Origin: Uliginosibacterium sp. 31-16
GTDB lineage: Bacteria > Pseudomonadota > Gammaproteobacteria > Burkholderiales > Rhodocyclaceae
Direction: 5' to 3'
NCBI RefSeq assembly: GCF_030730865.1
Contig: NZ_JAVALZ010000002.1
Span: forward strand, 434,001-498,000
Length of the DNA stretch: 64,000 nt
Shown here: piece by piece, positions 36,713-39,366 of the stretch
How positions within the stretch are numbered: the first letter of the stretch is position 1
How the letters are laid out: every line of letters begins with the position of its first letter
Notes under the pieces: model-generated
Database searches by the model: none
The model's input: the letters and a program-made list of their open reading frames with translations, nothing else
What the model was told of the DNA's origin: nothing
Program-made: the position numbers and the translations under genes

Positions 36713-37261
36713 CTACTCGTCGAACCGATATTCCGGCAACTCCGCATCGCCGCCCGCCCAATCCACCGGATACACCCCGGCGCGCACGAGGCGGTGAAAG
36801 GTGGAATGCGGCCATTCCGCCACGGCGCCCACCAAGCCGTGTTTCACCGGATTGATGTGCACGTAATCCATGTGTGCAGCGTAATCCGCATCGTCGCGGA
36901 TTTGGTGTTCCCAGAAACGGCGTTGCCATAGCGTCGATTCGCGTCGGGCAATGCGCGAGGCATTGCGCCATTCGGCCCGTTCGTAATCCGTCGCCACGGC
37001 GCGGGTGACAAGTAGTTTGATACGCCCCCAGCGCCGCCCAAAATCCGCGTCACCCGGCGGCAGCGTCCAGATGCAATGGAGATGATCCGGCAACAGCACC
37101 CAGGCATCAATGGCAAAAGGCATATCCGCCCGCACCCGCCGCACGGCATCGCGCAAAGCCACACGCAAAGGGTCATCGGTAAGGATGCGTTGGCGGCGGT
37201 GCATCACCACCGTGAAGAAGAAGGTAGCACCGGCAGCATTTGAACGACGGTAGCTCGACAT
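36713..37261 (-). CDS. REP-associated tyrosine transposase (RAYT)
   Basis: Y1/HUH single-strand transposase related to IS200/IS605 TnpA. The metal-binding HUH motif is HLH at 60-62 ([14 protein letters not shown]), and the tyrosine region is [19 protein letters not shown] followed by NPVKHGLV. Length 182 aa is normal for a RAYT. It is bracketed by GTAGGGTGCG-type REP palindromes on both sides, the hallmark of this group. RAYTs are domesticated and thought to move or maintain REP elements. The gene appears intact. Confidence 0.92.
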
Positions 37262-37355
37262 GGATCAGCCGCAACGCGGAAAGCGCCGATCATCGCCACC
37301 CACACGCCCTCTCGCAAGCCGTCCGGAAGGACGCCACGCAGCACATGCCAAAAAC

Positions 37356-37603
37356 GTAGGGTGCGCATTGCGCACCAATCCCAACCATCCACCCACCGTC
37401 GGCCGCTTGAAGGGGATCGTGCGAGAACGGACGCGGGGTCAGCGTGCGCGGTGAGCACCCTACCTGGCTGGCGCGAATCGATTCAATCTGTAGGGTGCGC
37501 ATTGCGCACCAATCCCAACAATCCAACCACCGTCGGGTCGCTTGAAGGGCATCGTGCGAGAACGGACGCGGGGTCAGCGTGCGCGGTGCGCACCCTACCA
37601 GGT
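37356..37603. repeat. Tandem BIME-like REP array (right side of RAYT)
   Basis: Two head-to-tail units of about 110 bp (37356-37466 and 37490-37602). Each starts with GTAGGGTGCGCATTGCGCAC, contains a shared middle (GTCGG..CGCTTGAAGG, then ATCGTGCGAGAACGGACGCG) and ends with the inverted GTGCGCGGTG-GCACCCTACC copy. The units differ at a few bases only, so the duplication is recent. No gene is present in 37262-37618. Confidence 0.85.
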
Positions 37604-37618
37604 TTTGAGAAAGCGGAC

Positions 37619-37714
37619 GTTCAACGTGAAAGTGAGGGGCGTCCGGAGCACGAAGCACGGAGGGAACCTGCAAGCGCAGCTTGCAGGCTGTCCCTCTCTA
37701 CTGAATGGTTAGGC
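37619..37714 (-). mobile_element. Integron attC site of the 81-aa cassette
   Basis: Read on the minus strand: R'' GCCTAAC (37708-37714), L'' GAGAGGGAC (37690-37698), a central palindrome CTGCAAGC-GCA-GCTTGCAG (plus strand 37668-37686), L' CGCCCCTCAC (37632-37641) and R' GTTGAAC (37619-37625). R'' fits RYYYAAC and R' fits GTTRRRY. The internal layout is the same as in the next attC, but the central palindrome differs by compensating changes. The REP array ends only 15 bp away. Confidence 0.85.
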
Positions 37715-37727
37715 CTTAGATTGATCA

Positions 37728-37973
37728 CTACTCACCGCTAGTGTTGGTCCTTACGTTCAATTTCCACCGAATCCTCCCTTGAGCCTGGGTGTGCTGGTGG
37801 TGGTTCTGCGGGGGAAATGGATCGTTTTCATTGGAAGTAATTTCCCGATTGCAGCCTAGGCAAATATAAATTCCAGAGACAGGAACTGTGTCACCTGGCT
37901 CATACGTACTCTTCCACCATGGCTGCGTCGGCTCAATTTTCTTTAAAACAGAGTGATTGGCGTAGTTTGACAA
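37728..37973 (-). CDS. Cassette-borne small zinc-ribbon-like protein
   Basis: 81 aa. The middle reads WWKSTYEPGDTVPVSGIYIC, then a C38-x2-C41 pair and H58, H59, H61 near DPFPPQNHHQH, which could bind zinc. Similar short proteins with GD-VPVSGIY and PFPPQNHHQH strings occur in mobile regions, from memory. It is the only gene in a 405-bp integron cassette (37625-38029) and its stop lies just before the attC R'' site. Lower GC than the surrounding chromosome. Function unknown. Confidence 0.75.
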   Translation of the reverse strand: MSNYANHSVLKKIEPTQPWWKSTYEPGDTVPVSGIYICLGCNREITSNENDPFPPQNHHQHTQAQGRIRWKLNVRTNTSGE

Positions 37974-38023
37974 TTGTTTCTCCCTTGCATTGTTGTAGGT
38001 GAGGCTGTTGCAAATTTTCTGCG

Positions 38024-38113
38024 GCCTAGCGTAGAAGTGAGGGGCGGCCGGAGCGAAGCGTAGGGAACCACAAGCGCAGCTTGTGGCCGTCCCTCTCGAC
38101 TGCCGGGTTAGCC
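38024..38113 (-). mobile_element. Integron attC site of the 318-aa cassette
   Basis: Read on the minus strand: R'' GGCTAAC (38107-38113), L'' GAGAGGGAC (38089-38097), central palindrome CCACAAGC-GCA-GCTTGTGG (plus strand 38068-38086), L' CGCCCCTCAC (38037-38046) and R' GCTAGGC (38024-38030). R'' is the exact complement of GTTAGCC at 39084-39090, the start of the same cassette, as expected for a closed circular cassette. Confidence 0.88.
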
Positions 38114-39064
38114 CGGAAACTTGAGGCTATATTGGCCGTCATCTTCCAATGGAGTCGCTTTGTGAATAATGATCGTTGGTCGCTTCTCTGCGACCAGACG
38201 CTGCTTTGTCAGGCGGCTTACTGTTCCCTCGATGACGCATTTGAGAAAAAGGGCATATTTGAAACGTCTTACATTGCCGAAATCTGGAATGCAGTTAAGA
38301 ACATGGCCCTCGTACTCAAAGCCAACTGAATTTGACGCTTCGCTACCACGGATCAACTTTCCTTCAAGTTTAACCGTCTTCCCGTGCTCCAGCTCCGGAA
38401 ACAGGAAGTCCTCATCTGCATCTAAGGTATCTTCTGAGAACAAAATTTTGTCGATTTCGCCCACAGTTACTTCTTCGCAAACTCCGCCCTTCATTACACC
38501 AATTGATAAAGTTCTTTCGGCTCTAACGACCGTCGTCATTTTTACGATCAAACGCTGCGGTATCGATGCGTACCAATTGAAGAACTCTGTAGGAATAAAT
38601 AAAACTTCTCCTGCATCGTTTGGGATTCCAACTTCATTTCCATTCTCCCGCCAAAGGACATTTTGTGTTTCCCATCCTTTAGACTTTTTTGTGTGCTTTA
38701 CCAAGCGCACAAGATATTGCATTGCACTCATGGATTTTTTTAGGACATCTTTGAGGCCAATATCCTTGCAATCGTTTTCAGCCATTTTCTCTCCGGCCTT
38801 TTTGAGATAGGAGAGCGCAAACGTACCTGCTCCGGCCCCCATGGCACCAAGAACAATTGCAATCCACGATCCGCCCTCGGTTCTAACCGGAATTTCGTAG
38901 TCCAGTTTTGCGAACTCGGTCGATTGTTTTTCATTAAAAAAACGTAGTGCCTCGTCAAGCCCAATTAGTGCCATGCCTGCGCTTCCGGCGTCTATGACGC
39001 CATGCGGCACAGCGCTTCCTGAGTATTTGATGAATCCGACATCTTCGTGAGCGAGATCATTCAT
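38108..39064 (-). CDS. Cassette-borne membrane-associated protein of unknown function
   Basis: 318 aa, no family recognised. It starts 20 bp inside the cassette boundary and its TAA stop lies within the attC R'' core, the tight fit typical of integron cassettes. One hydrophobic helix is visible (SWIAIVLGAMGAGAGTFALS, about 66-85); the N-terminal part has GVIDAGSAGMALIGLDEALRFF, and the long C-terminal part is mixed and soluble-looking. Codon use and base composition are clearly more AT-rich than in the neighbours, indicating recent acquisition. A defence or stress role is only a guess from the cassette context. Confidence 0.8.
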   Translation of the reverse strand: MNDLAHEDVGFIKYSGSAVPHGVIDAGSAGMALIGLDEALRFFNEKQSTEFAKLDYEIPVRTEGGSWIAIVLGAMGAGAGTFALSYLKKAGEKMAENDCKDIGLKDVLKKSMSAMQYLVRLVKHTKKSKGWETQNVLWRENGNEVGIPNDAGEVLFIPTEFFNWYASIPQRLIVKMTTVVRAERTLSIGVMKGGVCEEVTVGEIDKILFSEDTLDADEDFLFPELEHGKTVKLEGKLIRGSEASNSVGFEYEGHVLNCIPDFGNVRRFKYALFLKCVIEGTVSRLTKQRLVAEKRPTIIIHKATPLEDDGQYSLKFPG

Positions 39065-39083
39065 AGAGGCACTTTAGTAAGAG

Positions 39084-39139
39084 GGCTAACGTTAAATTTG
39101 AACAGCAATATTGCGCCATAGCTTGCCGATCTGTTGTAC
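39084..39139 (-). mobile_element. Cassette boundary and possible third, short attC
   Basis: GTTAGCC on the minus strand (39084-39090) marks the recombination point where the 318-aa cassette begins. Upstream, AACGTTAG is preceded by TTCAAATTT, like the end of many attC sites. A degenerate R'' (GTACAAC, 39133-39139) and weakly complementary CGGCAA/TTGCTG arms would make a 56-bp attC. The boundary is well supported; the full third attC is not. The rest of the gap to 39366 is AT-rich and holds no gene. Confidence 0.5.
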
Positions 39140-39366
39140 AACCTGCCAAGCGTAAACTCATGGAGACCCGCTCAGCGTCTGCGTCTGCGTCTCCACAATA
39201 CTGCCGCATCTCTTTCGACTTACTAAACCGGCAGAAAAAGCAGCAGTGGCGAACGGTAGCTTTTGAGCGCCAGCCTAAACCGTCCGCTCCTGGCCGACAC
39301 CTGCTAGACCGCGATCGACAAAATATAAATGGTTTTTAACCCATTTAAATCAAAGCGTCCCTAAGC

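Follow-up and report, generated by a model that had tools for sequence, protein, structure and literature searches.

An integrase-less integron unit with a candidate attI-type site, present in several copies in Uliginosibacterium sp. 31-16

Introduction

Recombination between attC and attI, catalyzed by the integron integrase IntI, takes place at G^TT. Sets of attC sites and cassettes with no intI nearby, known as CALINs, occur about as often as complete integrons in complete genomes (2961 versus 2760), and two attC sites suffice for IntegronFinder 2 to report one (PMC9024848). The origins proposed for them are off-target insertion, loss of intI, or rearrangement (PMC8618304), and in Xanthomonas they are found at multiple loci (PMC12444791). 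A locus of Uliginosibacterium sp. 31-16 that carries two gene cassettes raises the question of which of these routes produced it. The sequence can tell such origins apart where an attI site is still attached to the array, since insertion at a random site leaves none whereas loss of the integrase does. In this study, we examine the attC sites of the locus, the sequences that border its cassettes on either side, and their recurrence in the source genome and its relatives.

Materials and Methods

The window is the whole stretch of DNA analyzed, 64,000 nucleotides of the genome of Uliginosibacterium sp. 31-16 (G000; 3.9 Mb, 8 contigs, 99.75% complete). The genus is placed in the Zoogloeaceae, Betaproteobacteria. 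The comparison set comprised 61 genomes, namely the source genome and 60 relatives; eight belong to Uliginosibacterium, G000 to G007 among them, and G012 and G036 represent other genera. Searches over more than 40 genomes ran with stricter filters. The left element was modeled by profile R3 and the right tail by profile R2. Loci picked by the tail pattern are a selected sample, as are loci picked for attC motifs. Positions of the CTG-N10-CAG box in the first nine units were miscomputed, and the position at G000:C5 given below is the recomputed one.

Results

The two elements of 90 and 96 bp on the minus strand that the preliminary description had proposed as attC sites are present (Table 1). 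With filters off, a covariance model placed them at the top of its 12 matches in the 64-kb window, site 2 at 93.3 bits (E 1.1e-25) and site 1 at 91.3 bits (E 4.6e-25), the third-best match reaching 13.4 bits. The 34 training sites of this model include none from the source genome, but the window's own sites served as BLAST queries in collecting them, so that the model is not independent of these queries. Some of the training sites lie in arrays that reach an integrase gene (G026:C3, G024:C1), which ties the attC family to true integrons. The proposed cassette structure was likewise confirmed. The start of cassette 1, GTTAGCC at 39090, agrees with its own R'' GGCTAAC at 7/7 positions, that of cassette 2, GCTAGGC, agrees with GCCTAAC with the single mismatch claimed, and the crossovers fall where they had been placed. 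The gene of cassette 1 ends within R'' (TAA at 38108-38110), and the central palindromes of the two sites differ by compensating changes.

Table 1. Coordinates of the features at the locus, numbered along the window
Feature	Position	Strand	Remarks
Left element: candidate attI-type site with conserved upstream arm	39088..39297 (~210 bp)	-	Copies in the source genome and relatives; arm begins TCGGCCAGGAGCGGACGG at 39297
Direct repeat 2	39132..39142	-	-52 from crossover G; 2 mismatches to GTTATNCAGCA
Direct repeat 1	39112..39122	-	-32 from crossover G; 3 mismatches to GTTATNCAGCA
Cassette 1	38030..39089	-	Between crossovers 39090^39089 and 38030^38029; start/R'' match 7/7
Cassette 1 ORF (318 aa)	38108..39064	-	No Pfam, NCBIfam or PADLOC family
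attC site 1 (90 nt)	38024..38113	-	R'' GGCTAAC; R' mutated to GCTAGGC; 91.3 bits
Cassette 2	37625..38029	-	Bounded by the crossovers of attC 1 and attC 2
Cassette 2 ORF (81 aa)	37728..37973	-	No Pfam, NCBIfam or PADLOC family
attC site 2 (96 nt)	37619..37714	-	R'' GCCTAAC; R' GTTGAAC; 93.3 bits
Right tail, first 28 nt only	37598..37625	-	From crossover G; R2 match C2:471599-471627, E 1.9e-4
REP-type palindromic repeats (GTAGGGTGCGCA...) cutting the tail	37335..37602		Repeat families D1, D2, I1-I9; comparable repeats adjoin other tails
Y1 (IS200-like, RAYT-type) transposase gene	36713..37261	-	PF01797, 24.3 bits (cut-off 23); adjoins REP repeats, outside the integron unit

The covariation signal over the 34 training sites is mixed. 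Paired cells (85.2% versus 76.9%) and cells altered on both sides (62 versus 24.4) exceeded all 500 shuffles; pairs altered on both sides (10 versus 8.8) and further pair types (28 versus 29.1) did not go beyond them. Folded as single-stranded DNA, the two sites showed a mild gain over shuffled sequence on the minus strand (z -2.05 and -2.34), the plus strand giving z -2.17 and -1.28. Rfam yielded zero matches in the window at its gathering thresholds. Across the source genome the attC model detected 6 sites at E<=0.01, or 9 matches at six loci under a looser limit, and sites of this family were present in 43/61 genomes.

That the window contains no integrase, as had been stated, was borne out and extends to the whole of the source genome, in which no integron integrase scored above the cut-off of TIGR02249 (best 81 bits versus 265; six rows below the cut-off, at four places). 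Integrases above the cut-off were found in 34/61 genomes, two of the eight in the genus (G001, G005) among them. Of the components of a complete integron, the intI gene is thus lacking in the source genome, and an attI-type site at the start of the array is recognizable from its repeats and their spacing, that is, by sequence only. The earlier label of CALIN holds insofar as two attC sites occur with no intI, but it is incomplete, as an attI-type site lies on the left of the cassettes and a recurrent tail on their right. Because attI sites other than those of class 1 escape IntegronFinder (PMC9024848), a plain CALIN would be reported for such an architecture.

The left element of the window is a candidate attI-type site. 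The attI1 site is built of DR1, DR2, L and R boxes (PMC12901181), and in a reference attI1 from the class 1 integron of an E. coli plasmid the two repeats lie at -51 and -32. Among 11 aligned copies of the left element, repeats resembling GTTATNCAGCA with 0-4 mismatches were found at -52 and -32, shifted in one copy to -53 and -35. Like a class 1-type attI, the window copy has a pair of direct repeats, ~20 nt from each other, upstream of an R box; at the place of the L box CCCTAAA it has TTCAAAT. A stricter scan of 36,161 GTT positions, run on loci chosen for integron features, returned 11 distinct matches, nine of them copies of the element and two attI1-type sites beside intI; its degeneracy keeps the window copy out of this set.

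Profile R3 gave 13 strong rows, 11 of which had been training rows (G000:C2:362580 and G007:C22 were new), in 5/61 genomes, all Uliginosibacterium: six in the source genome and seven spread over four of its congeners. Three of the eight weaker rows (E 0.001-0.009) fall at attI sites, namely the one belonging to a complete integron of G012 (E 0.001), one adjacent to intI in G036 (E 0.009), and one at G000:C5. Copies within the source genome are 42-74% identical and three cross-species pairs 79, 79 and 86%, a divergence that suggests that the copies are old. An arm, TCGGCC..GCGGAC, is conserved beside several of the type-1 copies of the source genome, as copies of this first kind are termed here. 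The left element had zero matches in plasmids. Among contigs of named genomes, a scan that may omit records of the window's own genome found its pattern in 3 stretches, which belong to Uliginosibacterium gangwonense DSM 18521 and the MAG CTSoil_126. In the related genus represented by G036, an attI1-like site adjoins an integron integrase near the start of a contig (G036:C20:1-330, L183); no cassette was recognized there, and GTTGAACTAAACC follows the crossover.

The array at G000:C5 begins with a different, attI1-like left element that has a CCCTATAACAA box. A CTG-N10-CAG box lies at -120 and a stretch resembling the start of intI at -147; the corresponding positions in the G012 integron are -123 and -149. 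A search restricted to loci chosen for attC or tail motifs, in G001 and G006 as elsewhere, returned matches to this second type at eight more loci, in G002, G003, G004 and G007, the one at G003:C109 being a BLAST match without the crossover end. The L box of these copies reads CCCTATAA, CCCATAA or CCCTAAA. In a tally of seven rows that leaves out G003:C109 and G004:C9 (wrong GTT anchor), four rows had a cassette start that agreed with the next R'' at 7/7 positions, two had 6/7 and one had 5/7. Altogether, attI-type copies occur in 6/8 genomes of the genus.

Traces of an integrase were sought by tblastn over 1.5 kb of upstream sequence at 12 copies, with eight queries of which two were not integrase frames. 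The site at G007:C2 abuts a divergent, IntI1-like N-terminus of 41 aa that is 65.9% identical (E 1.8e-13, valid for the small set searched). Among the best 20 matches, nothing below E 0.7 was obtained for the six type-1 copies of the source genome. The CTG-N10-CAG box lies at -118 in G007:C2 and at -123 in attI1, G036 and G012. Among the six type-1 copies of the source genome, C2:362 has it at -298, and none was found within 350 bp of the other five, the window's included. The left element reads as a putative attI that lost intI.

The source genome contains six confident type-1 copies and one copy of the second type, and the cassette genes that come after them are unrelated. The window locus is one of at least seven loci there that bear an attI-type site but no intI. 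Among the longest ORFs of 12 units there was no similar pair at E 1e-3. The families found in the cargo were Abi_C/AbiJ-like (C1:948), DUF2971/PDC-S31 (C3:258) and DUF3800 (C2:362), and the other ORFs in the subset sent to family searches had no or weak matches. With R'' anchors chosen by eye, the first cassette start agreed with the next R'' at 7/7 positions in 7/9 units (C1:990, 5/7; C3:258, 4/7), an outcome with a probability of 1.2e-7 if each agreement is assumed to have a chance of 1/16. For three attC-like loci of the source genome, the searches performed did not recover a left element: a weak attC cluster at C3:691-692k, and attC-like sequence before a tail at C4:40.7k and C1:370.9k. 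As to cassettes in other genomes, the same CGGCGACTGTGGGAAGTCCCTTTTTAG sequence precedes three attC sites in two genera (L008, L047, L048; G019, G002), in G002 at contig starts, which suggests one shared cassette. G014 (L042-L044) has long arrays of near-identical attC sites with repeated cassettes on short contigs, and also an array beside an integrase gene.

The left neighbor gene of the window locus was matched in only 1/7 of the other genomes of the genus, and over 9 kb around the locus this gene was all that matched the corresponding place in that relative. No empty site was found among the genus genomes. A sister unit lies by nrdB, a locus matched in 8/8 genomes of the genus. There, both flanks are collinear between the source genome and G002, and they enclose 1,115 bp including the unit in the former versus 71 bp in the latter. 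This implies that units come or go, although divergence at the boundaries obscures the route. At this locus the left-element and tail profiles detect a unit in the source genome only, with none in G006. In G005 the outer arm is weakly matched (E 0.002), and inspection by eye shows an attI-like site with a cassette start. In G001, intI lies alongside nrdB; integron parts are thus seen 3' of nrdB in 3/8 genomes.

On the right, a recurrent tail of ~50 bp with the consensus ACGTTGAACGTCCGCTT..CTGACCGTCCGC..GGGTCGA takes over from the last attC site precisely at the crossover. All six type-1 left elements of the source genome have a tail match on the same strand 0.6-1.7 kb downstream, three of these tails being training rows of the tail model. 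The exact motif GACNGTCYGCTTTGGGTCG, with at most one mismatch, was found in 3/61 genomes. Sorted by eye, the 16 tail matches of the source genome follow attC-like sequence in eight cases, REP-type repeats in seven and neither in one. With 7/16 preceded by REP-type repeats, the tail is a wider repeat and not specific to integrons, and for the same reason the proposal that it is the right half of attI was discarded as the sole account. The repeats that abut the tail at those seven places are of the GTAGGGTGCGCA type and a second, GTAGGGCGGGTCA type. In the window, several GTAGGGTGCGCA repeats lie beside the Y1/RAYT-like transposase gene, between 36541 and 37602. At four loci of G010 and G005 (L083, L084, L137, L142) the last attC leads instead into GTTGAGGCTGTAGAAAA...; the three in G005 are alike over ~80 bp, and this looks like the end of an insertion sequence at an attC crossover.

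Terminal inverted repeats beat 99% of shuffles in 1/8 units. Compared with the inverted tail profile, 6/13 left arms matched at a similar place, with a best score of 7.9 versus 6.9 in shuffles; a putative inverted homology between left arm and tail is suggestive at best. A TATGAG match seen by eye to flank one unit was dropped, as it falls in conserved sequence.

Discussion

The locus is probably an integrase-less integron unit, made up of an attI-type site, two cassettes and a tail, that descends from a class-1-like integron and has lost intI. Its ancestors, like those of the other loci in the source genome, would have been class-1-like integrons of the IntI1/attI1 type, in which an IntI1-like enzyme joined cassettes at the G^TT of attI. 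Deletion of intI would then have left the attI core with its cassettes, and the intI-less units would subsequently have been duplicated or inherited. With no integrase encoded today, the array would stay frozen until an integrase enters the cell or one encoded on a different replicon acts on it. Unrelated cassettes join the attI-type sites at the same crossover; the sites may be competent for recombination by IntI1, and the cassettes may be expressed.

The copies in the source genome might have a single intI-less origin or several. Under one proposal, which we consider possible rather than likely, the genus Uliginosibacterium harbors non-autonomous mini-integrons as a family, each an intI-less unit of an attI site with few cassettes and a tail, dispersed over the chromosome and loaded in trans. 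Loading in trans, itself a somewhat doubtful element, would allow a single enzyme to fill many small docking sites rather than one array. Since copies within the source genome are only 42-74% identical and cross-species pairs 79-86%, the alternative to one dispersed platform is that several integrons decayed independently. This second proposal, in which every unit was acquired and decayed separately as a class-1-like integron with no intI-less dispersal, is possible as well, although we would not favor it. The high divergence among copies of one genome is in its favor, as are remnants at different stages: the 41-aa IntI1-like piece and CTG-N10-CAG box of G007:C2, and the box at -120 with the intI-start-like stretch at -147 that the second type retains. 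Repeated loss of intI is moreover known in Xanthomonas (PMC12444791). It fits less well with the six type-1 copies of the source genome, upstream of which the best 20 tblastn matches included none below E 0.7, and the arm TCGGCC..GCGGAC shared by several copies agrees with one common deletion.

Two further explanations deny the left element any role as attI. An ordinary CALIN would result if an integrase located elsewhere inserted cassettes off target at an attG, with plain DNA as flanks; the lack of intI above the cut-off in the source genome would agree with this, as would the strong dissimilarity of attG from attI and attC (PMC12901181). Such insertion leaves unrelated flanks, however, whereas those found here belong to one conserved family built like attI. 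With repeats spaced as in attI1, the same left element precedes cassettes at six loci of the source genome and seven elsewhere in the genus, and we consider this explanation very unlikely. It is also highly improbable that the element is a promoter or RNA-coding repeat that stands before cassettes by chance. One promoter-like match does lie at 39322-39349, a short distance upstream of the element in the window, and the outer part of the element is conserved with no known function, but the spacing of the repeats is that of attI1, R3 also matches attI sites beside intI, an IntI1-like remnant adjoins one copy, and Rfam has no match in the window.

What is new here is an integrase-less, attI-bearing, multi-copy integron unit. 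Such units were undescribed in the titles and abstract openings searched, and no literature pairing Uliginosibacterium with integrons was found, most subscription journals lying outside the scope of both searches. If units do spread without intI and are filled in trans, integrons would gain a distributed form with many sites, one that searches ignoring attI outside class 1 would have missed.

Among known systems, CALINs (PMC9024848, PMC8618304) resemble the locus in having at least two attC sites with cassettes and no intI nearby; the unit described here differs in its recognizable attI-type site at the start of the array and in its recurrence in the genome, and attI at CALINs goes unmentioned as far as those accounts extend. 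Cassettes were likewise kept after loss of the integrase in the intI-inactivated integrons of Xanthomonas (PMC12444791) and Treponema phagedenis (PMC3607928). Xanthomonas also has CALINs at several loci, but its ancestral platform resides at one locus (ilvD), and the available account reports no attI at the dispersed CALINs (PMC12444791). MITE-flanked or transposon-borne integrons, as far as they are described, share the idea of a non-autonomous, dispersed carrier of cassettes, and differ in that the units here lack convincing inverted repeats or an established target duplication. The chromosomal class 1 integrons of Betaproteobacteria (PMC5460862, PMC8618304) have in common with the units the attI1-type repeats, a betaproteobacterial chromosome and, through one copy, an IntI1-like remnant; by comparison with those integrons, the units have no intI, occur in several copies per genome and hold few cassettes each. 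Class-1-type attI sites in a betaproteobacterial genus bear on the origin of class 1 integrons.
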